Positions 4,601 to 25,111 of a stretch of 29,449 nucleotides of DNA are shown here, piece after piece. A program made the position numbers and the translations under genes. This DNA comes from a virus: IMG/VR virus record IMGVR_UViG_3300027881_000055, positions 1 to 29,449 of that record; one strand, given 5' to 3'. The notes under the pieces were generated by a model that was given only the letters and a program-made list of their open reading frames with translations, did no database searches and was not told where the DNA came from. Every line of letters starts with the position of its first letter. Position 1 is the first letter of the stretch.

Positions 4601-5200
4601 GTGTGCGTTTGCCAGCTGCAAGTAATCGTTGTTCGGGTTCCAGATCAGCGCACCGGCAGTGTCGTGCCACTCAGAGCCTGTGGCATTGAATACCATGTCG
4701 TACTGAGACTGACTGGTAAGGTCGGTGTCGGTCAGGGCGAAGAAGGATGTGACCGCAGAGCCAGCAGAAGACTCCCAGACGTTCGATGTTGAGTTGAACT
4801 GTAAGACATCACCATCGTTCGGGTTCAGGCTGTTATCGACATCTGTGAGGTCTGGCAATGCAAACGAACCTGCGCTGCCCGGTGGCTGAGCAACAAACGC
4901 TGAGCCATTCCAGACCAGTATGTCATCATGAGACGGCGTACCTGTGACATCGGACAGGTCGAAGATCGACTCGGCAGTGATGTCAGTCAGGTAGTCCTGA
5001 AGGTCGGTAATTTGCGATTCGATGTGGGTATGGTCGATAGGTGCATAAAGACCGCTGAAATCGTCACCAGTATCGAACAAGTCAGACTGAGTTGTTTCCT
5101 CCAGCGCCTGAAAGCGCAGTTCGAGCGCAGACACGAGCTGACGAATCTCGTAGCCCCTGAATGTGTCGTCTGGAAATGATGGAAATACAACCTTTGTCAT
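1640..5200 (-). CDS. Large multidomain tail fibre protein
   Basis: This 1186-residue protein begins with a predicted helical, charged segment (residues 1-75, including a DHTHIESQI stretch typical of fibre hinges). Short beta repeats follow (80-180), then long Gly/Ser/Thr/Asp-rich beta domains. Two segments match each other: near residues 196-228 (LANAH-VNWKD then LVFEEVGVAGTP) and 645-674 (LANAEGINWED then LNFEQTGTAG). KFFVGDP occurs at about 626 and again at 1070. Several domains close with similar strands (ICALPLSDF, LLAMDLTEL, ICAIDLDVF), which suggests tandem jelly-roll domains of about 150 residues. The C-terminus carries DHPHTG and a short KKVNLSS fibre motif. The start overlaps the stop of the nozzle-like gene by four bases (ATGA), so translation is probably coupled. 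I infer a trimeric receptor-binding or appendage fibre. Confidence 0.7.
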   Translation of the reverse strand: MTKVVFPSFPDDTFRGYEIRQLVSALELRFQALEETTQSDLFDTGDDFSGLYAPIDHTHIESQITDLQDYLTDITAESIFDLSDVTGTPSHDDILVWNGSAFVAQPPGSAGSFALPDLTDVDNSLNPNDGDVLQFNSTSNVWESSAGSAVTSFFALTDTDLTSQSQYDMVFNATGSEWHDTAGALIWNPNNDYLQLANAHSVNWKDTIGASQEMLVFEEVGVAGTPMSYYVFYSDTDSTESGQTYVDTANGLDQAQVDMVNGDTYVIFTRAIMHNDNSSAANINGYRVIINGAEMTGSEMLYEGIAGTAPVNYGNPYGYMGFFTANTAGTAVKTQHKRGSAGTNHVVSAETSFILNLDTDVPNHERDSSTTQVDVSDTGWVQTDAAVVLGAGDWVIFASAQFDQFNGANEPSVGINDGTTDIMLSGNVVEDSAADLYSCAGAYYLDSYAGGTVTVIASTWSASGSKITTYQAICALPLSDFSEAYGVQDTSATESNVAVQSVDEVVSTVAVTSIAGTGTNFVALGWATNEMANGNPQTSFEILEELNGGGDTLIGWDNINSNRKNTNANAWIGNTMVSSARSYSVGDAVDIKINAINMTAGYATNGFRYHGAALLGLQTASTNEEKFFVGDPNYPTRIDGTRIELANAEGINWEDVAADRYEFLNFEQTGTAGVALTHEVVQTESTYTATAGGGWENVTGATLASGSQNSGNDILLFGDIRINGTISSTLNDREVRLHDGTGAVTYSDARIEDEVNPSAGHGLGFMRKMTAGGGKDYHWEINAGATQNVNCYSTQLLAMDLTELGSSYQYSEDTTGVTDMTGANWTASTAAITFGDGVKNWLVFWCMQRQIDASGRQYAVRLDDGSSPVLVMQGESEDSAEMRTHSGFLTLAAPANATWTLQVQGETGFDTDDLLFASICAIDLDVFEDHAVEANTTNKSDWEANPGVAVTKTHVTATAATTDWACFGMFSASDWAAASGWGDAYLEVDDDGGGYTELTRPAIHDLWAFYNGHDTGSTTHNCFMGTQASVATGSSLTARVGHAAGAANHESNRHTMAMFTWQLTSGLVEKFFVGDPAFDTVIDGASVTVNHGADSVARTVTPASGGLEVNNTLTGAGFERVLTESDYDHPHTGEVTGTTALTLDVTAITNRGDVVADADDDVAIHDDSDGTIKKVNLSSITDAGYF

Positions 5201-7683
5201 CCGCGCTTACCGTGTGGTCCGGCTCTCCCTCTCCAGTTACCCATGCGCCATTTGTCGCCAGTAGCGCCTGATTCAATCCTCAACGCCACCTGACGCGCTC
5301 TCATGCGCGTTGACAGCTTACGTGTTCCCGGTGACACAGTGTATGGTCCTTTGCTGATCAGGTTGGGGTCTTGTGGATATTTACGTCCTGTCAGATAGAC
5401 ATCGACTGATCCTTCCAGTGTGACGAAATCTGGGATCAGCTGATCAATGTGCATCAACTCTTCGCCTGCGTCTGGAACTTCCATCTGGAAGGACTCAATG
5501 AACGATGCCATTGCCGAACCGTTATCATCCGTGCCTGTCTCGTGCTTATAGAGGTAGTTGTCTGTACCTGCTGCATACGCTTTTTCCAGCAAGGGGCTTC
5601 TGTCTGCCCATGCGGTCCTTGCCATCTTTCCTGTAACCCACGTCCCTTCTTCATAGTTGAATGCCACGTATCGGTTCACCTCAATCGGTGAGATATCAAA
5701 GTCACTCGCTGTCAGCACACCTACTGGTCCGGCAGCGAAGTTGTAGAACTTGAATTCATCATCAACATCAGCACCAGCTACCACATGCAACCCAGCAGAC
5801 CCACCAGTGTAAAGAGCCAGTTCTCCAACAGACAGATCGAATTGCCATACCTGCGTACCGTCCAGCCACACAGTGATCGTTGGCGTATCCACCTGCACTG
5901 TGATGATGTAATTGGTGTCCTGTGCTGCGGCAGAGCCAAGCACTGACGTGAATGTGTCGGTGCCCGGATCGTTATCCATGACGCTCTTCACGCCACTGGC
6001 ATCCTTCTTCTGGATGCGGATCGTGTCAGTGAAGAAGTCTGCCTCAACATAGATGCCTTGAGCGTCGTCAGAGGTTGTGTCTGGCGTACCAGTGATTTCT
6101 GTGCGCAGGAATACGAGACCACCCCAGTCTGTGGCAGCGCCACCATCACCATTGAATGCAAACTCGACAGCGTACTCACCCTCAAGCGGCGTGATCAGCG
6201 GTTCATCATTCGTCAGTACGTAGTCGTACTCATAGCCATTGTCTGCTGTGTTTGTGACTTCAGTGAAGCCACCTGAGTTGAACGAGTACGTGTAACCAAT
6301 TGTGCCGCCACCTGATGCCAGCGAGTAACCCACTGGCAAGCCGAGCGAGAAGTCCTGTTGTACCCATGCGTCTGGATCGAACGATGGATAGAACCACCAC
6401 ACTTCATTGAATTCGCGATTCAGGCCACCGTAAATCTTGTCACGCTGCACCACGTTCAAGTTGTCGTACACGAAGTTGCGCACGTCGCATGGTATTACCT
6501 TCACGATGCCGTCATAGATGTAGAAGTCCGACTCAGCCATGAACAGCACACGGTGATCAATCGGCACCGCACAATTCGGTCCCAGTATCGAGACATTCTC
6601 ACCGACGATGTTCAGGCCGAACACAGCGAAGCCGCCAACAAACGGCAGCGTATGCACGCTGACATCGGTAAAGATGACGGTCTCAAGGCGCGAGCGAACA
6701 CCTGCGACGATCTTCGAGCCTGAATAAAGTCTCAGGTCACCTGACGTATTTGTGCTGGTGGGAATCCAATCGTTCAGGTCTTCAGTTGAACACCAGCGAA
6801 TCAGCATCGGATCAAAGGCATTGTTGTAGAAGTCATACGCACCCAATGCGAGCACATGTCGATCTCTTTGCGAGACGATCATGTATTCGTTGTTCGGTGG
6901 CGCATCACCGCCAAGAGCTGTGGCTCTCTGACCAGTTCCCAACGAGCGATCCCACCAATAGATAGCACCGCTGCGTGGACTGGCGAGCAGGTCTTCGCCC
7001 CACGTGTCGAGCGCCCATGTGCGGATGCCCAGTTGCAGGGTGGAGCCGGTTCGAGCATTACCATAGCCTTCTCTACCGTATGGGCCAGTGCCATATCCAG
7101 TTGCTGTGGTGACGCTCGATGCGCCAGCGGAAATATCATATTCGTAGGAAGGTGTGCCACCTTCGCCTGCGCTGCCGGTAGCGGCAGTCTCATCGTCCGT
7201 GATCTCGTAGTTGTCGATGTCAATGACGGTATCGACCGGATATTCACCATCGACCGTAATGCCGGATGTGGCACCCACACCGGCACCTGAGAAGCGCACA
7301 TAGTCGCCCACCTGACAGCCATGGCTAATATGAAGAACCCTGACGCGAGTTTCCCCGGTGTAGGTCGTAAACGGCGATGTGAGCGTCCCAGAGTCCCTGA
7401 GCGGTGTGATGTCGTATAAGGTGCCGTCCTGCCACAGATACAGCTTGGTGTCCGTAGCGACCGCTGCCCAGCGTTTACTGTCAAGCGACGACCAGTCCTT
7501 CAAGCGACGGCAGACACCAAGGAAGGTCGGTTGCAGCTGAACCCAGCCACCGATCTTCTCAACCAATCCCTTCCTGAAGCGAACCTTGTCGGCCTTGTAC
7601 CACATGCCCACAGCGCCGCGCTGCGTCTGCTCTGTGTAGAGACCAGCTTGGATCGGTAATTGAAATATCTGCTTCGTTGTCAT
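5197..7683 (-). CDS. Tail nozzle-like protein (P22 gp10-like) with inserted beta-sandwich
   Basis: The 828-residue product starts with a segment seen in short-tail nozzle and DNA-stabilisation proteins (residues 10-50: P-x-x-x-G, GMWYKADKVRFRKG, GGWVQL). It continues with repeated propeller-like strands (WAAVATDTKLYLW at 72-84, WGEDLL, FMAESDFYIYDG at 381-392). The propeller framework seems to run from EVWWFYPSF (427-435) straight to RYVAFNYEEGTWVTGKMART (671-690). Between them, about residues 440-660, lies a separate domain with a concanavalin/laminin-G-like pattern (YAVEFAF, DTIRIQKK, ITVWLDGTQVW, GLHVVAG). In P22 the gp10 protein forms the tail nozzle that seals the packaged genome. Assignment to that role here rests on motif pattern, size, and position after the adaptor genes. 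A small beta domain near 100-170 may be a second insertion. Confidence 0.6.
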   Translation of the reverse strand: MTTKQIFQLPIQAGLYTEQTQRGAVGMWYKADKVRFRKGLVEKIGGWVQLQPTFLGVCRRLKDWSSLDSKRWAAVATDTKLYLWQDGTLYDITPLRDSGTLTSPFTTYTGETRVRVLHISHGCQVGDYVRFSGAGVGATSGITVDGEYPVDTVIDIDNYEITDDETAATGSAGEGGTPSYEYDISAGASSVTTATGYGTGPYGREGYGNARTGSTLQLGIRTWALDTWGEDLLASPRSGAIYWWDRSLGTGQRATALGGDAPPNNEYMIVSQRDRHVLALGAYDFYNNAFDPMLIRWCSTEDLNDWIPTSTNTSGDLRLYSGSKIVAGVRSRLETVIFTDVSVHTLPFVGGFAVFGLNIVGENVSILGPNCAVPIDHRVLFMAESDFYIYDGIVKVIPCDVRNFVYDNLNVVQRDKIYGGLNREFNEVWWFYPSFDPDAWVQQDFSLGLPVGYSLASGGGTIGYTYSFNSGGFTEVTNTADNGYEYDYVLTNDEPLITPLEGEYAVEFAFNGDGGAATDWGGLVFLRTEITGTPDTTSDDAQGIYVEADFFTDTIRIQKKDASGVKSVMDNDPGTDTFTSVLGSAAAQDTNYIITVQVDTPTITVWLDGTQVWQFDLSVGELALYTGGSAGLHVVAGADVDDEFKFYNFAAGPVGVLTASDFDISPIEVNRYVAFNYEEGTWVTGKMARTAWADRSPLLEKAYAAGTDNYLYKHETGTDDNGSAMASFIESFQMEVPDAGEELMHIDQLIPDFVTLEGSVDVYLTGRKYPQDPNLISKGPYTVSPGTRKLSTRMRARQVALRIESGATGDKWRMGNWRGRAGPHGKRG

Positions 7684-8879
7684 CAGGGTTCGTACTCATT
7701 CCATGCCCGAAGGTAGCCGCTGGTAAGAATGCCCCCAGTATCGCCTGCCCTGCGAATCTCGAATGCCTGCGCAACATGAGCAAATGCAGAACTCGTCAAG
7801 TTCCACTGAAGCGAAACCGTATCAAGCGTCTCCCAGTCACCCTCAGCGTGCGATCCCGGTATAGTTGACCAAGTACCAGTTCTGATGCCAAGCACGTCTC
7901 TCACTTCGTAATCGGTAAGCGCTGGTGGATTATTCCTGTACCACGAATCTGTACGATTATTGGTGCCGAAATCAGTGGTGACGGTTGTCAGTGTTCCGAG
8001 CGAATCATTCTGGAAGTCGAAGGTAGCGCTCTTGGATGTGGGCGTTCCAACAGTGAAGTTGCCAATGTTAAGGAAGTTCGGAATGCTCGCGATACCGCCA
8101 CTCTCACCAACGATGCGAAGCGCCGTCCTTAATTGTGCCTCAGTAAGTGATCCGCTCCATGTAACAACAGAACCATTTTGCGGATAAACGGCTGACCCGG
8201 CAGTACCGCCACAGCCACCACGCTGCGTTCCATAAAGCCCCAAGGATGGTGCAAGCCCAAGTTCACCACCGTGCCCCCACGTGCCACCGTTACCACCATC
8301 ATTTGTCGCAGTTGTGCCACCTTCACCACCGACACCAGCAGCATCAATATTGCCGTCTCCACCTGCTTCGGCAACTGGAAAGCCAGTGGGAATGCCAGCA
8401 GCTCCACCATAGCCTATCCCATAACCCTGCCCACCACCGCCGCCACCACCGGGCGTGCCAGTAGCTCCTTCGTCATGATAGCCGCCGCCGCCACCACCAC
8501 CGCCGCCGCCTAAGATATAGCCGTCATCTACGTCGATACTGATGTCGAAGGTATTAACGCTTATGGCATTAGTGCCACCGTCACCATTACCACCTTGTCC
8601 ACCGCTGCCACCGTTGTCGTCTGCACCATCTCCAGCATCACCACCAGAGCCAACGAAGCGACCACCATTGATCGCAATGAACTCGAATGTACAGTCTCCG
8701 TGAAAATCCAGCGGTATCAGGATGTCGGCTGCGTCTGCACCATTGACTGTGAAAATAAGATCGAACGGATTGGCAGGCTGACCCATGTAGTCCCACAGGT
8801 TGCCGATCAACGTATCTTCGTCAATCAGTATCGTTTGGGCACCCGTACCCATCATGGCTGGTACACGAGACCAGATCAT
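7683..8879 (-). CDS. Glycine-rich adhesin-like tail protein
   Basis: The 398-residue product has a short beta region (residues 15-75, TILIDEDTLIGNLWD and FEFIAINGGRFVGSGG), then a glycine-dominated region (about 75-230) with runs of ten and seven glycines at 124-133 and 144-150, then a beta-rich C-terminal domain (230-398). This order resembles glycine-rich distal adhesins such as the gp38 protein of T4-like phage S16, and the C-terminal parts of lambda-type J proteins, where polyglycine helices pack in a sheet and present receptor-binding loops. The C-terminal domain here is not recognised. The start overlaps the preceding stop as TAATG, and the stop touches the nozzle-like gene. Receptor binding is inferred from composition and position. 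Confidence 0.55.
   Translation of the reverse strand: MIWSRVPAMMGTGAQTILIDEDTLIGNLWDYMGQPANPFDLIFTVNGADAADILIPLDFHGDCTFEFIAINGGRFVGSGGDAGDGADDNGGSGGQGGNGDGGTNAISVNTFDISIDVDDGYILGGGGGGGGGGYHDEGATGTPGGGGGGGQGYGIGYGGAAGIPTGFPVAEAGGDGNIDAAGVGGEGGTTATNDGGNGGTWGHGGELGLAPSLGLYGTQRGGCGGTAGSAVYPQNGSVVTWSGSLTEAQLRTALRIVGESGGIASIPNFLNIGNFTVGTPTSKSATFDFQNDSLGTLTTVTTDFGTNNRTDSWYRNNPPALTDYEVRDVLGIRTGTWSTIPGSHAEGDWETLDTVSLQWNLTSSAFAHVAQAFEIRRAGDTGGILTSGYLRAWNEYEP
8431..8510 (-). repeat. CCN trinucleotide tracts encoding polyglycine
   Basis: Plus-strand bases 8431-8450 and 8481-8510 consist almost only of CCA and CCG triplets, coding for runs of seven and ten glycines on the minus strand. Such tracts can change in length by replication slippage in steps of three bases, which keeps the reading frame. 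They sit in the glycine-rich part of the adhesin-like gene. Confidence 0.85.
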
Positions 8880-9742: not shown

Positions 9743-10402
9743 TTACCTCTGGGTTGTAGGCACCGCTGGCGCTTCCAGAGGTGTCAAGTTGTATCTCTGA
9801 TTCAGTAGCTCATAGGTCTCCCGTTTAGCCATCGGCAATTCTGCCGTGTACTGTTCCATCCACATCGGAGCACGGTCATCGGACTTGAGGAAGCCCTCTG
9901 CTTCAGCCAGACATGCCTTGAAGAGCATGTCGTCCTGATGCAGGGACAACCATGTAGTCGCGTTACCTACCGATAGTCGCGTTGGACGAGTTACGCCACG
10001 AGCTGTGAGCGTATAAATTGCGTCAGGGATCGGAGACAGTAGCCAATCAGTCTCAGTCTGTTCAGAGTAGTATTTAGGTGGAGCCGTTTGACCCACTGTC
10101 TGGTGATCCCTGACGAAATCGGTTGACCGCAGTTCGAGCCACGTGCGCTCGCCTGCGCTGTCATAAAAAATAGATTGTGTTACCACCAGCTCAGCGTCAG
10201 TCACCGGCTTGGTCACGGTTTCAGCGCCTGACGCTGTATCCGCTGTGTCCTCTGACGTGAAGATCGACAAATCGAGATCACGCCACAAGCGCATCTCTCC
10301 GAGATTGATCACGTCATCAATCGAACCTGTGAACTCAGCGTCGTCGTCTTCAAGCCACGCTTGCAGCTTATCGCTCAGCTCTGTGTACGTCATGTTGCTC
10401 AT
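9743..10402 (-). CDS. Phage adaptor-like protein (second head-tail adaptor)
   Basis: The product (219 residues from the chosen start) resembles the adaptor proteins of short-tailed phages such as SU10: an N-terminal helix (MTYTELSDKLQAWLEDDD), the motif IDDVINLGEMRLWRDLDL with a Met-Arg-Leu-Trp-Arg helix, a central beta part (LELRSTDFVRDH, PPKYYSEQTE) and a C-terminal helical part (DMLFKACLAEAEGFLK, MEQYTAELPMAKRE). Such proteins form a dodecameric ring under the portal. I chose the ATG at 10402 because it overlaps the upstream stop as TGATG, the style used across this operon, and GGGTGGG lies just upstream. A longer start at 10426 would overlap the previous gene by 25 bases. Together with the gp4-like protein this is the second adaptor candidate. 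Confidence 0.6.
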   Translation of the reverse strand: MSNMTYTELSDKLQAWLEDDDAEFTGSIDDVINLGEMRLWRDLDLSIFTSEDTADTASGAETVTKPVTDAELVVTQSIFYDSAGERTWLELRSTDFVRDHQTVGQTAPPKYYSEQTETDWLLSPIPDAIYTLTARGVTRPTRLSVGNATTWLSLHQDDMLFKACLAEAEGFLKSDDRAPMWMEQYTAELPMAKRETYELLNQRYNLTPLEAPAVPTTQR

Positions 10403-10950
10403 CAGCCCACCCTGTGTATAAGACACCCGGCAGCGTTGAAGCTCAGGTCCGCTGTGCCAGTATCAATCTTCACTCTCATGTCAAGCAGGTCTCCAGCCGT
10501 CAATGAGCTGATCTCTTCAAACGAAACCACACCAACATCACTACTCGATGCTGACCTGACCACCTCAATCGCGCCCGGTGAAGCGTTGATGTGTGGACGG
10601 AACGTGATTATGGTCGGCGTGCCATCTGACGAGAACGATGCCCAGAAGCCAGTCCTGTAAATACCAGTCGCCCCGATGGTGAAGTCATATGTTGACGACA
10701 ATGTGAGCGACGTACCATCCGTGTTGACATCAGATGACTGTGCGTGAATGGTGTCGAACACATCGAATAGCTCGAAGGTCGTGCCAACTGCGCTCATGAC
10801 CGCTGGCGCTCCAGCCGCGCTCAATACCATACAGCCGTAACCCATCGCTGATGCCATTGCGTCACGCAGGTCTTCTGGCGAGATGTCAGCCGTAGTGTTA
10901 TCTGCCAGCAGTGTTCTTACAGCTGTCTGATCACGTTCTGTTTGTGCCAT
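10402..10950 (-). CDS. Putative virion protein with C1q/TNF-like jelly-roll domain
   Basis: The 182-residue product has a short helical N-terminus (residues 1-40, including SPEDLRDAMASAMGYG) and a beta-rich domain to the end. The pattern of that domain fits a C1q/TNF-type jelly roll: LTLSSTYDFTIGATGIYRTGFWASF near 83-107, then ITFRPHIN, then LTAGDLLDMRVK and a last strand FNAAGCLIHRV. Such folds occur in head fibres, decoration proteins and receptor-binding tips of phages. It sits between the conserved Trp/Pro-motif gene and the second adaptor, joined to both by one-base stop/start overlaps. Its location in the virion is unknown, either neck whiskers or a tail component. Confidence 0.45.
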   Translation of the reverse strand: MAQTERDQTAVRTLLADNTTADISPEDLRDAMASAMGYGCMVLSAAGAPAVMSAVGTTFELFDVFDTIHAQSSDVNTDGTSLTLSSTYDFTIGATGIYRTGFWASFSSDGTPTIITFRPHINASPGAIEVVRSASSSDVGVVSFEEISSLTAGDLLDMRVKIDTGTADLSFNAAGCLIHRVG

Positions 10951-13206: not shown

Positions 13207-14121
13207 TTAGGCGCTGCCAGAGCTGCCGAAGCCACCACGGTAATCAGACCACCCGAACGAGTAGCGTTCACGCGCTTTGTAACGCATGTTGCCGGTCTCG
13301 AAGTCGCCTTCGAGTCCACGTTGGATGTTCTTACGAACCATGTGCTTCAGACCGTCATTGCAGTCCGTGATGATCGTCCACTGACTTGCATCAGTTAGCC
13401 GATGGTTCTTGTAGCAACCACCGGGGATCATGCCCATCTTCTTGATGGCATTGATGTCATTGTCAGCTGTACCGGGACGGTACGGAGACATCAACAGCCT
13501 TTCGGCAACAAACATCAAGTCGGGCGGGACAACCAGTTTAACGGCACGAACAGCAATCGGAATTGCTCGCTCGTCCACGAACTTACTGATCGCGATGCAG
13601 GCTTCCTCAAGGGAAGTCTCTGACAGATCAGCTTGTGTCGAGAACGTGTTCGCCTGCACACCACCACCGAAGAGCGGATGTAGTGTCGAGAACAGCTCAA
13701 CGCCATCACCACCGGGGAAGTTCGAGTCGAAGCCGTTGTTGATCGGGGCCGCGCCCTTTACTTCTTTGGTGTGTTGCATCGAGCGAGCAAGTGCTTTCGA
13801 GTACTTGTTACCGATGGAGCCATAGAGATTGTCTTCCTCAGCTTCCTCTGTGAGCGAGAAGGCCAGTGCAATCGTCTCATGCACGTAGCGGCTGACGAAC
13901 GCCTCACCACCTTGGTCATACGCCACTGGTGCGCCTTCCGGCTTCACAGGTGCGCCAGCCAAGCCAGCGAGCAGTACGTCTTCCTCATACGCTTTCTGAG
14001 AGTTTTCTACAGCGTAAATGGGTCTCCACTCCTGTTCGTAACGTCTGTATTCCAGACCGAACACGGTGTTCAGACCCTCTTGCAGCTCCTTTCTAAAGCG
14101 AGCGCGATTCATGATAGCCAT
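13207..14121 (-). CDS. Major capsid protein
   Basis: From the chosen start the product is 304 residues. It carries hallmarks of a common HK97-fold capsid family of podo- and siphoviruses: LVVPPDLMFVAERLLMS, PYRPGTADNDINAIKKMGM, then DCNDGLKHMVRK, the motif LEGDFETGNMRYKARER, and the C-terminal YSFGWSDYRGGFGSSG. The start at 14121 (MAIMNRARF) is preceded by AAAGGAG eight bases away and does not overlap the previous gene, while a longer reading to 14253 would run through the preceding coding region and reads as non-protein-like. It is followed by a hairpin terminator, as expected for the most expressed virion gene. The scaffold and the probable decoration protein are encoded just upstream. The assignment is firm by motif. 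Confidence 0.9.
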   Translation of the reverse strand: MAIMNRARFRKELQEGLNTVFGLEYRRYEQEWRPIYAVENSQKAYEEDVLLAGLAGAPVKPEGAPVAYDQGGEAFVSRYVHETIALAFSLTEEAEEDNLYGSIGNKYSKALARSMQHTKEVKGAAPINNGFDSNFPGGDGVELFSTLHPLFGGGVQANTFSTQADLSETSLEEACIAISKFVDERAIPIAVRAVKLVVPPDLMFVAERLLMSPYRPGTADNDINAIKKMGMIPGGCYKNHRLTDASQWTIITDCNDGLKHMVRKNIQRGLEGDFETGNMRYKARERYSFGWSDYRGGFGSSGSA

Positions 14122-14134
14122 TAGTCGTTCTCCT

Positions 14135-14731
14135 TTAGATAGACGCGAGCGGCGATGCGACCAGAGCGCTCTCAGATACAACCACTTCAACTCGTGGATT
14201 GTCTGAGGATGCGTCTGCCGGATAGATGCCGTCAGGTGCGAGTGCAAGGCCAATTACTTGGAACTGAGCAGTAGTTGCTCCCGGTGTTCCGACTTCAAAG
14301 CCAGAAACTCCGTTTGCAACATTGCCTGCCCCAGCAACAACGTCAGAGTACTGCGTGACATCGGCTGCGGCGTAAGCGCCTTCTAATTGGACGGAATAAA
14401 CGATATTCAGATCGCTGTACACGAATGCTTCCGCAGGGACCGAACCAAGAGTGACAGTACCGCCCACCCATTGGTTAGACCATACAACATCACCGTTCGC
14501 AGCGGTGTACTGACATCCGGCGAAAACGCCGATAACGTCACCTCCACCAGCAGCTGCTACGTCAATGTTATTTCCATCACCTGCCGGGGTTGCGTGCCTG
14601 ATTACGGCGTCACCCTGAAAGATGCTGGAAGCCTCTGCGGAGTCAATCGTGAAGCCACCCGTATATCGCACGGTGCCACCAGAGCGGTGGCGAATGGGAA
14701 CAAACCCATTAGGTGCGTCGAGATTTGCCAT
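14135..14731 (-). CDS. Probable head decoration/stabilisation protein
   Basis: The 198-residue product starts MANLDAPNGFVPIRHRSGG, a signature I associate with a capsid-adjacent protein found directly upstream of capsid genes in many podo- and siphoviruses. The rest is beta-rich with GDVIGVFAGCQY near 85-96 and YSDLNIVYSVQLEGAY near 126-141. GAGG lies nine bases upstream of the ATG. Position between scaffold genes and the capsid gene supports a capsid decoration or cement protein. It has no scaffold-like charge pattern. Family recognition is good, role moderate. Confidence 0.65.
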   Translation of the reverse strand: MANLDAPNGFVPIRHRSGGTVRYTGGFTIDSAEASSIFQGDAVIRHATPAGDGNNIDVAAAGGGDVIGVFAGCQYTAANGDVVWSNQWVGGTVTLGSVPAEAFVYSDLNIVYSVQLEGAYAAADVTQYSDVVAGAGNVANGVSGFEVGTPGATTAQFQVIGLALAPDGIYPADASSDNPRVEVVVSESALVASPLASI

Positions 14732-17193: not shown

Positions 17194-19638
17194 CTATTTA
17201 CTCTGTGCCTTTGGTTTCGGTTTAGCAGTCGCTGCCTTTTTCTCTCTTGCAATTTTCGCTGCATTGGCAGCGTCGTCTCGCTTCTCCTTGGCTTGAGCTG
17301 CTCTGTTCTCGCGCTCCTGTTTCGCTTTGGCAAGATAGTCTTCACGGTCTTCCTTGCTCAGCGCTGCCAAGTCCTGACGGTTGATGTCAGCCAGCGCCTT
17401 CTCGTCCATGCGCTCCATCTCTCTGGCGTGTGACTCATCCTTCCGTCTTTCGTCTGATTCAAACTGTTCATCCTCTGGGTCCATTCCGTCTTCCGGGTCC
17501 ATGATCTGGATTACCGGCACCTGTGCTGCCATCTGTGCGAGCTGTGTCTCGATCTCAGGTGGCATGGGCTGCTCTGGAGTGAACTGCCCCGGTTCAGGCA
17601 TCTGTCCACCGAGCTGTCGATTCATCTCCACCCAGTACTTGTATGCGAAGTGCTCAGCCATGTGTGCCTGCATCACCGGCCCGATCATTTCCATGGCCTC
17701 TGGTTGCAATCCATTGATGAAGTTCACATGCACGTCGATGTGTGCATCGTGGTCCTGATCAATGAATGCGTTCGCGCCCTGTCCCTGCAACATGCCCATG
17801 TTCTCGGTCACAGGATCAGCACGCACTGGTACTTGCTTCTGCAACAGCTCTTCGTAATCAGCCACCCGAATAGCTCGCAAGAAGCGCTCATGCACAGCCA
17901 TCTGGTTGTACAGCTGCGGATGTGCGTCACTCAGCTCAACCAGCGCTTGCCCCTGCGCGATGCGCTGCGTCGATGAGAAAATGTTCGGATCACTGATCGG
18001 GATAACATCGACACGACCGTCATAGTCCTGACGCATCACAACCGACTCAGCAGCTTCCACTTTGTATGGGTACTGGTCCGGCAGGAATTCATAGTTGAGT
18101 TCAGCACGGAGCTTGAACTCTTCAGCTGCCGCCATATGCAGGCGACGATGGATTGCTGAGAAGGGCTTGGAGCCTTGCTCTATGAGGGCGATGGTAGTAC
18201 CCACCGGACCAGTGTTCGATGCTTCACCCGTCAAGACCTCAGTGCTGGCAGAGAATGCCTTGCCTGCATCCAGCAGTGTCTCGAACAGCTTCGCCAGTGC
18301 TGGCGATGGGTCTTTGAATGGCGGCGTGTAGAAAGCGCGTGCCAGCTCATCTGCCGACATGTTCACTTCCTTGTACACACCCGGATCAATGTGTTCGTCT
18401 CCCGGCTTCATCTTCGCGTCGTTGGATACGTAGCCACCCTGCATGTTGGCAAACGCAGCAGAGTCCAACAGCGCCCTGATGGTGCCACTGGTTGCTTCAG
18501 CAACAGAGCCGATGATGTGCAACAGGCCGAAGCCGTAGAAGCCCAGACCCGGCAGGTATTTGTAGTGCGTGAACCAGATGCGCTTCTGCATCAGCGGGTC
18601 GTCTTCTTTCCAGTTCCTGCGAACCGACAACACCTCTCTGGTGGCCTTCTCCACGGTAACAATGTAAGGCAGTGGCGCAGCACGCTCGTAACGCTCTTGG
18701 TCAGATTCCAGCACCATGTCGCAATGACATTCGTATACGGTGTACACCGAATCGTCTGCGTGCATCTCAGCAGAACGTGAGTCAGCTTGATCCCTGTTCT
18801 CGTGCTCGCGATCATCCACCGAGTCGGTGCTGTACGGTGTGCTCATCGGCAGCTCAATCTCTTCCCAGAAACCTGACTCGAACAGCTTCTTCATCTCGCT
18901 GGTGTTCTTGAACATGCGGTGCGTGTAGCGCGGCGCACTGGCAAGGTCGGTAGCGATGTATGGCACGATGAAATCAGGTGACTGAATGTAGCGACTCACT
19001 ACCATCTGGCTCACTGAGTCGTAGTACGTCTTCTTGAAGGCCGAACCAGCCAGCGGCAGGTAGAACAACATCGAGTCCACCTGCCAGAAGTAACTGCGAT
19101 CCTGATCGAGAATCTGGTAGTTCATGTGGTTCTTGATGCGCTCAGCCTGATCTTCGACCTCACGTGTCATCTCACCGACGATCTTGGTCTTGACTGGTCC
19201 TTCAGAGGGGAACACCTCTTCGATAGCGCGTGCCTGAAACTGCACCACAGCCTCACCGATGAGTGGATACGTAACAGCAGAGGCACCATCGAAGGCAAGC
19301 TCTTCCAGCGGCACGTCATTCAAGCCCAGCAACTCCATGGCTTGTTCCATGCGTTGTTCCCAGTCCTTGCGTGACTCGATGTCTACATCAACCCACTCGC
19401 AAATCAGGTTCGCCATGTCAGCCAGTTCCTGCCTGCTGAGATCGTGCATGATGTTCGCTGCGTGCTCGTCGCTGTCATCCTGAGAGTAGCGATTCATGCC
19501 GGGGTTGAAGTCAACGGTCGCTCGGTTACCACGTCGAGACACCTGAGCATCACCAACCATGCCAGAGAACCCACCATCATCCAACGCTGGCATCTCCGGT
19601 GAGCGTCCGTAGTCTATGTCGTCTGATCGCCTTGCCAT
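17194..19638 (-). CDS. Portal protein
   Basis: The 814-residue product is a large portal of the type found in podoviruses such as P22-like and SU10-like phages. Visible features are SRKDWEQRMEQAMELLGL (about 88-105), AFDGASAVTYPLIGEAVVQFQARAIEEVFPSEGPVKTKIVG (about 118-158 in short pieces), YRYIQSPDFIVPY-type strands, PYIVTVEKATREVLSVRRNW, LPGLGFYGFGLLHIIGSVAEATSGTIRALLDSA (about 366-398) and MKPGDEHIDPG. The last hundred residues are a charged Lys/Arg/Glu/Ala-rich coil, which may be the crown or barrel. The portal is the dodecameric ring through which the terminase pumps DNA. CGGAG lies seven bases upstream of the ATG. Its neighbours are the terminase upstream and the head genes downstream, which is the standard order. 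Confidence 0.85.
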   Translation of the reverse strand: MARRSDDIDYGRSPEMPALDDGGFSGMVGDAQVSRRGNRATVDFNPGMNRYSQDDSDEHAANIMHDLSRQELADMANLICEWVDVDIESRKDWEQRMEQAMELLGLNDVPLEELAFDGASAVTYPLIGEAVVQFQARAIEEVFPSEGPVKTKIVGEMTREVEDQAERIKNHMNYQILDQDRSYFWQVDSMLFYLPLAGSAFKKTYYDSVSQMVVSRYIQSPDFIVPYIATDLASAPRYTHRMFKNTSEMKKLFESGFWEEIELPMSTPYSTDSVDDREHENRDQADSRSAEMHADDSVYTVYECHCDMVLESDQERYERAAPLPYIVTVEKATREVLSVRRNWKEDDPLMQKRIWFTHYKYLPGLGFYGFGLLHIIGSVAEATSGTIRALLDSAAFANMQGGYVSNDAKMKPGDEHIDPGVYKEVNMSADELARAFYTPPFKDPSPALAKLFETLLDAGKAFSASTEVLTGEASNTGPVGTTIALIEQGSKPFSAIHRRLHMAAAEEFKLRAELNYEFLPDQYPYKVEAAESVVMRQDYDGRVDVIPISDPNIFSSTQRIAQGQALVELSDAHPQLYNQMAVHERFLRAIRVADYEELLQKQVPVRADPVTENMGMLQGQGANAFIDQDHDAHIDVHVNFINGLQPEAMEMIGPVMQAHMAEHFAYKYWVEMNRQLGGQMPEPGQFTPEQPMPPEIETQLAQMAAQVPVIQIMDPEDGMDPEDEQFESDERRKDESHAREMERMDEKALADINRQDLAALSKEDREDYLAKAKQERENRAAQAKEKRDDAANAAKIAREKKAATAKPKPKAQSK

Positions 19639-19642
19639 TGGA

Positions 19643-19837
19643 TTACTCCGAATCTACCAGCGCCGCCCAAGCGTTCCAGCCAGCTGTCAACCGAGTGCTA
19701 ACCTCAGCTTCGGTATCGTAATGCTCATTGATCTCAGTTCGCTCCCTATCAACGATCATCATCCCGGTCATCTGGTAACCGAATGTTGGGTCCAGCGCCT
19801 GTATTTCTATCTTAAATACGTTGTCATCGTGTGCCAT
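19643..19837 (-). CDS. Small unknown protein between terminase and portal
   Basis: The 64-residue product begins MAHDDNVFKIEIQALDPTFG and is a mix of beta strands and a helix, with no recognised motif. Its start overlaps the terminase stop as TAATG, and its stop is four bases before the portal gene. It is very likely real given this tight coupling. It may regulate packaging, but no evidence shows that. Confidence 0.5.
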   Translation of the reverse strand: MAHDDNVFKIEIQALDPTFGYQMTGMMIVDRERTEINEHYDTEAEVSTRLTAGWNAWAALVDSE

Positions 19838-21495
19838 TATCGTGTCCCTCTGATGCCGCCATACGTGCGAACAGGTTTGTTCACGTGACGCATCAAGTTA
19901 TCGTTATCGTCATCATCATCAAGAAAATCAGCACTCCACTTCTTGCGAAGCCAGAGCATTGCCTGTGTACATGTGTCCGTTAAATCATCGTGATCATCAG
20001 CTGGATAGTTGCCACACTGACTGATTACTTCGCTCGCCCAGTTGCGCTTCACGTAGAACACGCAACCGCGCTCAAGGACAAGAGATGCAGCGTGTGCTCG
20101 CACGAACTTCGAGTCAGTGACTTTGATTCGTGCAACCGGCAAACCCGCACGCCGCAGCTCCTGCGCCAGAGAGTGACCAGATGCTTTCTTCTCGATCAGT
20201 ACCTTGTCTGGCTTCCACAGCTCTGCGGCTTGAATGGCATTGTCGCGCAGCTCTGGGAACTCCAGACGCAAGTTCATGCGTTCCAGAAGGATCAGGCAGA
20301 GCCGCTTCTGGCCTTTGTATTTCGCCGTCCACGGCAACTTCGGGTTCAGTCGCTCTTCATGTTCGAACACGCCCCACGTGGTACGGGCACTGAAGTCGGA
20401 CTCTTCATCCTCTTCGAACGCCGTGTCGTAACTCTGGATCACCATCTGGATGGATGGCAGTTCTGGCTCGGTCCACTCGCGCCAGTGATGCTCCTTCATG
20501 ATGTTGCCACCCTTGGCGCTGGGGTTCTGCTGAATCTGTGACTCGAAGCCACGCTCAGTCAGTTCCATGGACAGCTTGCGCATCTCTGCCTGACCAAAGC
20601 GCTCAGGTGTCAGTAGATCGTTCTCCTTGCTGCGCGGGTCAACGAAGATCACCTGCTCTTGCTTCAGCGGCTCGATATGATCACCGAATGAGAAGGCATC
20701 AGGGCTTGCAGGAACAACGCGATTCGACGTTTTCTTTGCTTTGGTCACACAACGGTTTGAGGGTACGAAGTACCCCGGCAGGTTAAGGTGAACCCAAGTT
20801 CCACTTGCGAGCACGTGCCCCGGCAAGTCCTGATGGTGACCACGCTGAGCGATGATCACACGGCCTAATTTCTTCGGATCGTTACCACGTGTTGACATGA
20901 CATCACGCCACCACTCGATAACACCTGTGCGTATGGTGTCGGAGTTAATCTCCTTCATGTTGTGAGCGTCGTCCACGACGATCCTGTCGCCGCCCTCACC
21001 CGTTGCCGTGCCACCTACTGACGTTGCCAGTCGGTAGCCATTGGCGTCGTTGTCAAATCGTCCCTTCTGGTTCAGGTCAGAGCTGAGCGAGAAGCAATCA
21101 CCGAAGTGCTCCTGATACCACGGACTCTGGATTAGCCTGCGACACTTCACCGAATCACGAATGGTCAGTGCGCTCGCGTAGGTGGCGAACAACCACTGCG
21201 TCGATGGTCTCCATGTCCACTCCCAGCACGGCCACATGACAGCCACGATGGTGGACTTCGAGTGTCGTGGTGGGATGTTGATCACCAGATCGTCAATGTC
21301 ACCCAGTGAGACATACATCAGGTGATCGCAAATGGCATCAATGTGCCAGCCGCACTTGAACTCCTTGCCCGGTTCCACCACGTGCCACGCCTGTCGCACA
21401 AACTCCTTGAGGTCGTTGCGCATCTGCATGGCCTGTATGTAGGTCCACTGAGCGCCTGCCTCATATACACCAAACTCTGTGGCAGGCATGTTCAT
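19837..21495 (-). CDS. terL: Terminase large subunit
   Basis: The 552-residue product has the ATPase and nuclease halves of a packaging motor. Walker A is INIPPRHSKST (73-82) and Walker B is RIVVDDAHN (171-179). The coupling motif is IIAQRGHHQDLPG (214-226), where TRWHEDDLxG is more usual. In the RNase H-like nuclease half, QSYDTAFEEDEESDFSA (354-370) supplies the first Asp, VLIEKKASGHSL (432-443) a Glu, and YPADDHDDLTDT (497-508) further acidic residues. The protein cuts concatemers and drives DNA into the prohead through the portal. The start overlaps the upstream stop by four bases. No obvious small subunit lies immediately upstream. Confidence 0.9.
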   Translation of the reverse strand: MNMPATEFGVYEAGAQWTYIQAMQMRNDLKEFVRQAWHVVEPGKEFKCGWHIDAICDHLMYVSLGDIDDLVINIPPRHSKSTIVAVMWPCWEWTWRPSTQWLFATYASALTIRDSVKCRRLIQSPWYQEHFGDCFSLSSDLNQKGRFDNDANGYRLATSVGGTATGEGGDRIVVDDAHNMKEINSDTIRTGVIEWWRDVMSTRGNDPKKLGRVIIAQRGHHQDLPGHVLASGTWVHLNLPGYFVPSNRCVTKAKKTSNRVVPASPDAFSFGDHIEPLKQEQVIFVDPRSKENDLLTPERFGQAEMRKLSMELTERGFESQIQQNPSAKGGNIMKEHHWREWTEPELPSIQMVIQSYDTAFEEDEESDFSARTTWGVFEHEERLNPKLPWTAKYKGQKRLCLILLERMNLRLEFPELRDNAIQAAELWKPDKVLIEKKASGHSLAQELRRAGLPVARIKVTDSKFVRAHAASLVLERGCVFYVKRNWASEVISQCGNYPADDHDDLTDTCTQAMLWLRKKWSADFLDDDDDNDNLMRHVNKPVRTYGGIRGTR

Positions 21496-22375: not shown

Positions 22376-24295
22376 CTATTCATCCGATTGCAATGTAACT
22401 GTTGCGTCAGTGCCACCACTGGCATCTGCCACTGTGATTCCTGTCTGCCTGTAGAACGGTGAAGATGTACTCTTGCGTGCCCAGCCAATCAGCCCTTGTG
22501 ATGCAGGCCACACCTTCGAAGACTGGATGATGCCGGTCGTCGCAGTCAGTCCACTGATCGGCGCATATGAAAATACTGGTGTACCAGTTGCTGGTGAGCT
22601 GATGCCACTGGTAACTGCATAGGTGAAAACGGTCGTGCTGGTCACAGTAATCTGTGCCTGCTTGTTGTAGTCATCAGGCTGTGCGCCACGCACCACAACA
22701 TAGTCTCCTGTCGCCAGACCATGCACTGCTGATGCTGTCAGTGTCGCTGTGCCAGCCGATGACGAGAGCGTGGTCACTGCTGCCTGATACGGGAACCCTG
22801 AGCCACCACCGTTGTCTGCTGTCTCGACCAGCACACGTGCCTGATCAATGGGGTCGCCAGCACTGTCCTGCACCGTGAACTTGGTGGTCGCTGGATCGGC
22901 AACAATCGTTATTACAACACCTGCCGAGTAGAAGCCGAAATTGCCAGTGCAGCCCACCAGATTGACGGTGAGCGTGCCTGTCGTATCCCTGAAAGCGAAC
23001 GTCTCATCTCCAGCCTCTGCCGTTGGGCTGGTGTTCTCACTAGCCGAGAAGTCTGTACCGAAGGCACATCCACGGAGCGTGATCGCGCTGGTCGGAATGT
23101 TGGCTCCAAAGTCTATCGCGTGATGCGCTGTGCCTGATGTCTTCGAAAACGTCAGGTCGTCCAGCTCACCGTCTGGATCGACGTTCAGGTCATAGGTCAG
23201 GCAAGCACCATTCGCAGCGCCGACATACTCACTGAATGAGCTGCCTGACAGGTCACAGCCGTTCGCGACAACCTCATCATTTGCGATGAATGCACAGTTT
23301 GTCCACAGGTCACCAGTGTCATCGGATGTCTCGATACCTACGTCGAACCCAATGAAGGAACACGAGAGCATATTGCACACGGTGATGTCAGCACCGTTGC
23401 CATCGAATGATGCTGATGCAGCAGAAGGGACAGTGAATGTTGTTGACGTAAAAGAGAACTCGCAGTTGGTTGCTGTCGAACTGCCGATCAATGCAAAGCG
23501 ATAGTAGTTGTTGGTGGACAGCCCACGGTCTTCCCATGAGTAGGTGACGAACGCCTCTGTCCAGAACTGATCAGATGCACTACTCGAATCACCGAGAATG
23601 ATGTTGCCTTGGATGCCGTAAACACCAACACCAAGCTCGCGGATAACACCCAGTGCCTGTTGGTTGGTGACTGCCCGGTCCAGCACTGCCATCTCTGCTG
23701 CACTGCCAGCCGCACCTGATGTCGTGCCACCAACGAAGGTGACGGCATCGCCGTTATCTGCAAAGCGAATGATGTCCCAGTAGCAGTTGGTGCCGCCACC
23801 CAGTGCTTTGGATAGCGTCTTGAATGCCACTCCCACTTCAGTGATTGCGGTCTCGTCAAGACTGGCCTCTGATCCTCCACCAGTGAGCGCTGTGAAGTTG
23901 GCTGGCTTGTTGGCAAGGTCGAGCAGGTAGCACTCCCACTTCACCGGACCATCGTCATGCCGGAACGCAGACTTGTCCGAGCCACCGACATGATAACCAA
24001 CGTAGTTTGTGCCATCAGTGACCTGAATCATGATGCCACCATTGACCAGCGTGTCCATGTTGCCGTTTGCCTGAACCCAGACCGACAGCGAGCCACCACC
24101 AGAGTAGTCGTCAGAAGTGATCGACACATAAGCGTCATGAGTCGCAGTGCTGACACCCATGCCCAGCTGGTTGGTTGCTTCAATCGCCACTGGTGCATTA
24201 GCTGCAACAACAGTTGCGCTTCCAGTCCAGCCAGTGTTGGCATCACACTCGTTGAGGATGATTCGTGCGGTGTCGTCTGCGACTGTCGTGGTCAT
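22376..24295 (-). CDS. Fibre-like virion protein with predicted beta-helix
   Basis: The 639-residue product is built of short strands rich in Gly, Ser, Thr and Asn. An N-terminal domain (8-185) reads like a carbohydrate-binding beta-sandwich (GSLSVWVQANGN, GGIMIQVTDGTNYVGYHVG, CYWDIIRF). A middle part (about 225-460) shows beta-helix-like short repeats (CEFSFTS, CNMLSCSFIGFDVG, WTNCAFIAND, LRGCAF, NLVGCTGNFGFY). Then a small domain at 505-560 has the common phage-virion motif HGLATGDYVVVRGAQPDDYN with FTYAV. The C-terminus is short. It overlaps the SPOUT-like gene by four bases. Structural and probably surface-exposed; substrate unknown, and depolymerase activity cannot be claimed. Confidence 0.6.
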   Translation of the reverse strand: MTTTVADDTARIILNECDANTGWTGSATVVAANAPVAIEATNQLGMGVSTATHDAYVSITSDDYSGGGSLSVWVQANGNMDTLVNGGIMIQVTDGTNYVGYHVGGSDKSAFRHDDGPVKWECYLLDLANKPANFTALTGGGSEASLDETAITEVGVAFKTLSKALGGGTNCYWDIIRFADNGDAVTFVGGTTSGAAGSAAEMAVLDRAVTNQQALGVIRELGVGVYGIQGNIILGDSSSASDQFWTEAFVTYSWEDRGLSTNNYYRFALIGSSTATNCEFSFTSTTFTVPSAASASFDGNGADITVCNMLSCSFIGFDVGIETSDDTGDLWTNCAFIANDEVVANGCDLSGSSFSEYVGAANGACLTYDLNVDPDGELDDLTFSKTSGTAHHAIDFGANIPTSAITLRGCAFGTDFSASENTSPTAEAGDETFAFRDTTGTLTVNLVGCTGNFGFYSAGVVITIVADPATTKFTVQDSAGDPIDQARVLVETADNGGGSGFPYQAAVTTLSSSAGTATLTASAVHGLATGDYVVVRGAQPDDYNKQAQITVTSTTVFTYAVTSGISSPATGTPVFSYAPISGLTATTGIIQSSKVWPASQGLIGWARKSTSSPFYRQTGITVADASGGTDATVTLQSDE

Positions 24296-24708
24296 TTGCT
24301 CGCCCTGTCATACAGGACAATCGACATCGCCTGATGCGGCCAAAGCATCCCCATCAGGTCACAGTCAATTCGTACTGACAGATCATCCTGCCCATACGTT
24401 GGGAACGGTGTGTAATTCGCCTTGCCGAAGACATACAAAGCATCCTCTGGGTGCTCGAAGTCTTTCAGCTCAGTCTCGCCGTTCTCGTCTACGAACACAG
24501 TGGTCAGGTGCGGCTTTGACGCAAGCACCTCTTCCACCGTCTCGTACTCATCAAGGAACTTGCACTGAATGCCAGTGACCGGGAACATAGTAAGGCGCTC
24601 GACATTGAACGAGCGCATCGCCATGCCCCAGTGTTCGATCTCTGTGATCGGCGCTGCCCAACCAAGCTCCCAATTTCCAGCTACCTCAATGATAGTGACG
24701 CTCCACAA
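24292..24708 (-). CDS. SPOUT (SpoU/TrmH-like) RNA methyltransferase-like protein
   Basis: The reading frame gives a product whose second half resembles the trefoil-knot region of SpoU-type RNA methyltransferases. HPEDALYVFGKANYTPFP stands where family members have a LVxGxExxG motif, and RIDCDLMGMLWPHQAMSIVLYDRA stands where IPM...SLNVSVAxAIxLYE occurs. The first half (ITEIEHWGMAMRSFNVERLTMFPVTG) fits the N-terminal strand-helix that holds the NxGxxxRxAxxxG motif, but that motif is changed. The start is uncertain: TTG at 24708 (138 residues) is used here; rare ATC/ATT starts at 24693/24690 follow GGAG, and an ATG at 24771 would overlap the sulfotransferase-like gene by 86 bases. Members methylate tRNA or rRNA with S-adenosylmethionine. 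The missing canonical residues mean activity is not assured. Confidence 0.5.
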   Translation of the reverse strand: MWSVTIIEVAGNWELGWAAPITEIEHWGMAMRSFNVERLTMFPVTGIQCKFLDEYETVEEVLASKPHLTTVFVDENGETELKDFEHPEDALYVFGKANYTPFPTYGQDDLSVRIDCDLMGMLWPHQAMSIVLYDRASK

Positions 24709-25111
24709 TCGGCAACTTGTACACTGGTCGCAGGTCAGCCTTGTGCAGCTTCCAGCCAGCGTACGCTCCATCACCATGACCCTCTTGTGTCCAGTCAGTG
24801 ATGCGTGGGTCGCTACACTGATCCACACAGATGACATCGAGTTCTATCATTTGATCCAGCGCATGGAGCTGACCCCACGCCATGAAGAACTCACCATACG
24901 GAAAGCTCTTCGGGTTATTCCTGCGACACCATGACCGAAACACATCCGCTGGCTCTCGCAGGGGCACGATGATCTCGCGCTCCATCGAACACCATTCCCA
25001 CAATCTTCCCCAAGGGAGCGTGGTGTGCGCATTATCTCTAACATCCAGCCTCTTCTTGAGAAACCGTGTACCAGAGTGCGGCACCGATACAATGATGGGA
25101 TCAGATGTCAT
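24686..25111 (-). CDS. Short sulfotransferase-like protein
   Basis: The 141-residue product starts TSDPIIVSVPHSGTRFLKKRL; the SVPHSGTRFL piece matches the 5'-phosphosulfate-binding loop of sulfotransferases (usually PRSGTT or PHSGTR). IVPLREPADVFRSWCRRNN (about 47-65) matches the 3'-phosphate-binding strand-helix (VRxPxDxxxSxxxR). Such enzymes move sulfate from PAPS to a sugar, lipid or protein. At 141 residues it is shorter than the usual 220-300, so it is either a minimal version, as seen in some phage genomes, or lacks the C-terminal part. It overlaps the 780-residue virion gene by 11 bases upstream and the SPOUT-like gene downstream. Substrate unknown; modification of a virion glycan or of the host surface is conjecture. 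Confidence 0.55.
   Translation of the reverse strand: MTSDPIIVSVPHSGTRFLKKRLDVRDNAHTTLPWGRLWEWCSMEREIIVPLREPADVFRSWCRRNNPKSFPYGEFFMAWGQLHALDQMIELDVICVDQCSDPRITDWTQEGHGDGAYAGWKLHKADLRPVYKLPIVERHYH

Follow-up and report, generated by a model that had tools for sequence, protein, structure and literature searches.

Nearly all of the SPOUT proteins studied to date are RNA methyltransferases. Activity of T. thermophilus TrmH is nearly abolished when Asn35, Arg41, Glu124, Ser150 or Asn152 is changed (PMC5372735), and in a 2007 survey inactive SPOUT members were stated to be not yet reported, with one candidate being named (PMC1829167). The tRNA 2'-O-methyltransferases TrmL, YibK and CspR of the SpoU/TrmH class resemble the small phage protein considered here (gene B) in size, in secondary-structure order and in overall fold (TMq 0.73-0.78), and the motif 2 G and a LYD/YE-type C-terminal helix are common to both. 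Gene B differs from them in the replacement of all five catalytic positions, in a set of new conserved residues and in its location beside a phage spike gene. TrmH-family proteins are also encoded by Mycobacterium phage WXIN, Rhodococcus phage Trina and the huge phage LR756511.1. In contrast to gene B, all three retain the motif-3 Asn and the Glu of FGxE/GxE, and the motif-1 N...R is likewise present in WXIN and Trina; the three genes furthermore lie away from spike genes in the stretches examined. By motif, WXIN and LR756511.1 are the nearest phage sequences to gene B, with which they share HP..A.Y..G, V.I.T and LYDR/LRDR-type ends. In LR756511.1, a 595-kb uncultured phage, a bona fide SpoU-family gene (L006, positions 3682-4276) is interrupted by a frameshift, and each of the two resulting ORFs matches PF00588.

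Sulfotransferases (Pfam Sulfotransfer_1/3; SULT and Cpz8 structures) are the closest described counterparts of the neighbouring gene A, in which motifs resembling their 5'-phosphosulfate loop and 3'-phosphate site occur in the same order and spacing. However, gene A has about half the usual length, carries His in place of the loop Lys/Arg and falls under every profile cut-off. Dedicated tail-fibre chaperones (e.g. T4 gp38/gp57A and lambda Tfa) are small proteins encoded beside the fibre gene which they serve, and several of them act on the C-terminal end of the fibre. None of these is known to have a SPOUT fold. Gene B is like them in being a small protein encoded beside a fibre gene, but unlike several of them it tracks the N-terminal domain of its neighbour, gene Y, and not the C-terminal end. 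A literature search returned no earlier description of a tail-fibre-linked SPOUT protein, a SPOUT pseudoenzyme or a sulfotransferase in phage virion operons.

Gene organisation and distribution

Within the window, the whole 29,449-nucleotide stretch of viral DNA analysed here, genes A and B are two overlapping small ORFs on the minus strand between the spike/fibre-like genes X and Y. This arrangement and its position inside the virion operon are as given in a preliminary description of the locus, and the motifs quoted there (SVPHSGTRFL, IVPLREPADVFRSW, ALYVFG and MLWPHQAMSIVLYDR) were all found in the ORFs. The relevant features are as follows.

13207-14253: major head protein
17194-19638: portal
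19837-21495: terminase large subunit
22376-24295, minus strand: gene Y, spike/fibre-like, 639 aa; its N-terminal domain of ~240 aa is the part co-segregating with gene B
24292-24699, minus strand: core of gene B, predicted degenerate SPOUT protein (SpoU/TrmH class) of ~134 aa; start uncertain, 24690-24708; nine members
24686-25111, minus strand: gene A, probable minimal sulfotransferase-like protein, 141 aa, ATG start; three relatives (L007, L015 and L016) at 51-59 % identity
25101-27443, minus strand: gene X, spike/fibre-like, 780 aa; gene A stands behind X in one X subclade

A 181-aa version of gene B (ATG at 24837) was rejected as too long, because the relatives start close to "MIEVAG" and residues 1-46 of the longer ORF correspond to the tail of gene A, out of frame. 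There is no ATG near the real start in the window, the options being TTG at 24708 or ATT/ATC behind GGAG. Gene B thus appears to be without a normal start codon at 24690-24708, and the ATT/ATC option overlaps the stop of gene A. Purifying selection acts on both genes: the window and L001 give dN 0.18 and dS 1.1 for gene B, and for gene A dN is about 0.3-0.4 and dS is saturated.

Profile scans of IMG/VR yielded nine full B proteins (window, L001, L002, L004, L007, L008, L010, L012 and L014) with pairwise identities of 31-72 %, and a tenth, truncated relative in L005. No relatives of either gene were found in cultured phages at E <= 0.01, and neither the N-terminal domain of Y nor X has a match among cultured phages. 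No relative of gene B turned up in the genomes of 84,980 bacterial and archaeal species, and it is absent from PHROG. In BFVD its only matches with E < 0.001 are two giant-virus TrmH-like proteins. Single-sequence searches of Pfam, PHROG, NCBIfam, the PDB and cultured phages gave nothing usable for either gene. A Curtobacterium phage match for gene A (E 0.03) was discarded because it runs antisense to an annotated gene.

Gene A, a probable minimal sulfotransferase

Two motifs resembling those of the PAPS site are present in gene A.

25058-25081, minus strand: 5'-phosphosulfate-loop-like motif PHSGTRFL, residues 11-18, with His replacing the usual Lys/Arg
24932-24961, minus strand: 3'-phosphate-site-like motif LREPADVFRS, residues 51-60, with an R-to-S spacing of 8

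Both PH.GTRFL, which follows strand 1, and LR.P..V..S are invariant among the four relatives. The latter contains the R-x7-S of the 3'-phosphate motif, with the same spacing as in the sulfotransferases of set A9; the bacterial members of that set mostly have HRSGTS at the loop. The order and spacing of the two motifs were recovered in 0/200,000 shuffles of gene A, while among the 1214 ORFs of at least 80 aa in the compared loci the pattern has seven matches, all of them copies of gene A. The AlphaFold2 model has a pLDDT of 70, with residues 98-124 unpredicted. Foldseek comparison of this model gives sulfotransferases as the most probable fold class (probabilities 0.82-0.89), but with E > 0.05, and RecA-like proteins (RadA) and guanylate kinase are also matched at similar E-values. 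Pfam Sulfotransfer_1 matches one member only (E 0.14), and hhalign comparison with sulfotransferases is weak (P 0.02). The sulfotransferase identity that had been proposed for gene A is plausible: the PAPS-site-like motifs stand in the expected order and spacing, while the support from fold and profile is weak.

It is rather unlikely that gene A is some other small P-loop protein, either kinase-like or a nucleotide-binding structural protein. Such an assignment would fit the RadA and guanylate kinase matches, the single Sulfotransfer_1 match and the length of 141 aa, about half the usual sulfotransferase size, but it is countered by the invariance of both PAPS-site motifs with their canonical R-to-S spacing in four relatives, and by the highest Foldseek probabilities going to sulfotransferases. 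All four A genes follow an X of one subclade, whose members are 64-75 % identical to one another and 42-58 % identical to the X proteins of loci lacking gene A. Gene A is read here as probably a separately gained minimal sulfotransferase, an optional gene behind spike X, whose product would probably use PAPS in the sulfation of a glycan or protein; we infer this activity in its entirety.

Predicted SPOUT fold of gene B

The AlphaFold2 model of gene B, built from a seven-row alignment, has a pLDDT of 82.6 and a pTM of 0.82, with residues 91-110, the knot region, forming a low-confidence part (mean pLDDT about 57-67). The best fifty Foldseek matches of this model in the PDB are all SPOUT proteins of the SpoU/TrmH class, including CspR, YibK, TrmL, TsnR, AviRb, TrmH and TrmJ (best E 4e-7; TM up to 0.78), so that the model and its structural matches both point to the SPOUT alpha/beta fold. 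Homology to the SpoU/TrmH class is also indicated at the sequence level by three comparisons. Using hhalign against an alignment of five true SpoU proteins (E. coli TrmL, TrmJ and TrmH, and two phage TrmH-like proteins), gene B was matched with P 1e-5 and prob 82 over an alignment spanning residues 47-138 only, while the SpoU target against gene A and gene B against the sulfotransferases, used as null controls, gave nothing. In a profile search of 177,635 PDB sequences, TrmL and AviRb ranked first, with E-values (0.23 and 0.53) that are weak alone. Pfam SpoU_methylase (PF00588) matches two B members (best E 0.012), no member being shown to reach the curated cut-off. By structure prediction and profiles, gene B is a SPOUT/SpoU homologue, in agreement with the SPOUT-like character first suggested for it.

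Loss of the catalytic residues and a new conserved set

The three motif regions of the SpoU/TrmH class can be placed in gene B as follows.

24628-24672, minus strand: motif-1 region WELGWAAPITEIEHW, residues 10-24; the catalytic Asn is replaced by E20, and the Arg position, 26, lies just outside and is variable
24415-24435, minus strand: motif-2 region YVFGKAN, residues 89-95; the catalytic Glu is replaced by A94 (A/G/V)
24331-24345, minus strand: motif-3 region LWPHQ, residues 119-123, replacing (S)LN(V/L)S; WPHQ occurs in 8/9 members

The motif-2 and motif-3 correspondences to TrmH were taken from the profile alignment, while that of motif 1 was assigned manually, using secondary structure and an ungapped TrmL anchor, as the aligners do not settle it and MAFFT leaves the N-terminal parts unaligned. 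On these correspondences, all five catalytic residues of TrmH are replaced in 9/9 B members. Asn35 and Arg41 of motif 1 correspond to E20 and the variable position 26, Glu124 of motif 2 to A/G/V at position 94, and Ser150 and Asn152 of motif 3 to the variable position 118 and to position 120, which is W in all members except L014, where it is F. The replacement of the SLN motif that had been remarked on is thus borne out, but because all five residues required in TrmH are gone from every member, the accompanying proposal that gene B is a modification enzyme finds no support as far as known kinds of enzyme are concerned. RNA methyltransferase activity is unlikely on the basis of the sequence, and we infer that gene B does not methylate.

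A new set of residues is conserved in the ancestral active-site loops. WExG..P..E...W and GK are invariant (W10, E11, G13, P17, E20, W24, G92 and K93), and WPHQ (W120-P121-H122-Q123) is kept in 8/9 members, being absent from L014. When a conserved column is defined as one kept in at least 8/9 members, and with motif regions picked after the alignment was seen, 15/32 conserved columns fall in the three ancestral motif regions, which make up 33/135 positions (p 0.001). This clustering indicates that the loops have not merely decayed and that selection maintains a new surface or pocket there.

Linkage of gene B to the spike gene Y

Gene B lies directly upstream of Y in 9/9 loci, overlapping it or a few bases apart, and a search from the N-terminal domain of Y alone recovered five loci, each with gene B directly upstream. 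Only 5/9 loci have X ahead of gene B in the same orientation, either immediately adjacent to it or separated from it by gene A. In L012, B and Y form a two-gene unit (positions 5995-8353) whose orientation is opposite to that of the larger genes flanking it on either side; the surrounding genes include a fibre-like gene at 2977-5919. The conserved unit is gene B together with the spike gene Y, and the linkage to one fibre gene that would characterise a fibre chaperone or adaptor is thus found for gene B, both in its position before Y in 9/9 loci and in the L012 pair. The Y of L015 and that of L016 are divergent homologues (prob 96 by hhalign), and there is no gene B anywhere in either record, although these records may be incomplete.

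Distances between B proteins correlate with those between the Y N-terminal domains (r 0.70, p 0.0008), compared with r 0.43 for the Y C-terminal part and r 0.34 for X (five genomes). Since the nine B sequences are few and share ancestry, this co-divergence is taken as support and not as proof. Between the window and L007, gene B is 54 % identical, the N-terminal part of Y 58 % and the C-terminal part 85 %, from which it follows that the C-terminal part of Y was exchanged while gene B stayed with the N-terminal part. Y of the window (22376-24295) and of L007 (6399-8309) is accordingly a mosaic spike. In L007 the spike is encoded by two ORFs of 450 and 158 aa, which a frameshift may have separated. 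In L002, an Hsp20-like small heat-shock gene, recognised by eye, is located directly upstream of gene B (positions 1-408).

Possible roles of gene B

Because gene B is in every case found together with the attachment end of Y, it is more likely to be a helper or part of the spike than an RNA-modifying enzyme. The favoured reading is that of a pseudo-methyltransferase, with a re-tooled enzyme acting on Y ranked second. Gene B would derive from a small SpoU/TrmH-class RNA methyltransferase, having kept the fold while losing the catalytic and AdoMet residues, and its old active-site loops would have been rebuilt with the new conserved residue set. It would be translated just ahead of Y and would most likely bind the conserved Y N-terminal domain, its role being that of a dedicated folding/assembly factor or of a virion adaptor. 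That gene B is such an exapted SPOUT pseudo-methyltransferase, serving Y as assembly factor or structural partner, with gene A a separate and probable minimal sulfotransferase, is put forward tentatively, at close to an even chance. With somewhat more reserve, gene B may found a family of phage proteins that have recruited the SPOUT methyltransferase fold as a partner, non-catalytic (or with a new catalytic function), of the tail-spike attachment domain; it may also be a knotted protein in or on the virion. If this is true, a whole family that has shed all of its catalytic residues and is tied to a single phage spike domain would clearly exemplify fold exaptation, with gene B as a possible knotted virion component. 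The case also calls for caution before such genes are labelled RNA methyltransferases.

A re-tooled enzyme, that is, a protein-modifying or otherwise unusual SPOUT protein acting on the Y N-terminal domain or its glycan through a WPHQ/E/K pocket, is unlikely but would account for several of the observations. The new conserved residues sit in the ancestral active-site loops and are not scattered, a SPOUT protein with a protein substrate is known (Sfm1; PMC9508554), the pairing of an enzyme with its substrate would equally yield the linkage of B to Y, and the operons carry modification enzymes (gene A, and glycosyltransferase-, methyltransferase- and sulfotransferase-like genes in L007 and L014). 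However, every residue on which methyl transfer is known to depend has been lost (PMC5372735), and the likeliest new catalytic motif, WPHQ, is lacking in L014. More doubtful still is a role in binding host tRNA or rRNA with no modification of the RNA, or in some other regulation of translation, the adjacency of gene B to Y being incidental. Although the SPOUT fold almost always occurs in proteins acting on RNA (PMC9508554) and the nearest structures are the tRNA enzymes TrmL and CspR, such a role sits poorly with the strict adjacency to Y in 9/9 loci, the transplanted B-Y pair included, with the position in the virion operon and with the lack of gene B in the records with a divergent Y.

Co-occurrence of genes A and B

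The two genes had been proposed to form a modification cassette, with conserved adjacency in related phages as its check, but they occur together in only 2/12 records (window and L007); eight records have gene B but no gene A, the B of one being truncated, and two (L015 and L016) have gene A but no gene B. The pair is not a unit, given this low co-occurrence, and a cassette of a sulfotransferase and an active SPOUT methyltransferase expressed with the late genes is very improbable: the overlap of the genes in the window and L007, the sulfotransferase-like motifs of A and the SPOUT fold of B speak for it, while the rarity of their joint presence and the lost catalytic residues of B speak against it.

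Other putative modification genes are clustered in the virion operons near X, B and Y in L007 (1996-2673 and 9362-11647) and L014 (3163-5611), where glycosyltransferase-like, FkbM methyltransferase-like and larger sulfotransferase-like genes were recognised with Pfam, with the L007 gene at 9994-10470 being assigned by motif only. The gene content of these clusters suggests that some of these phages modify glycans.
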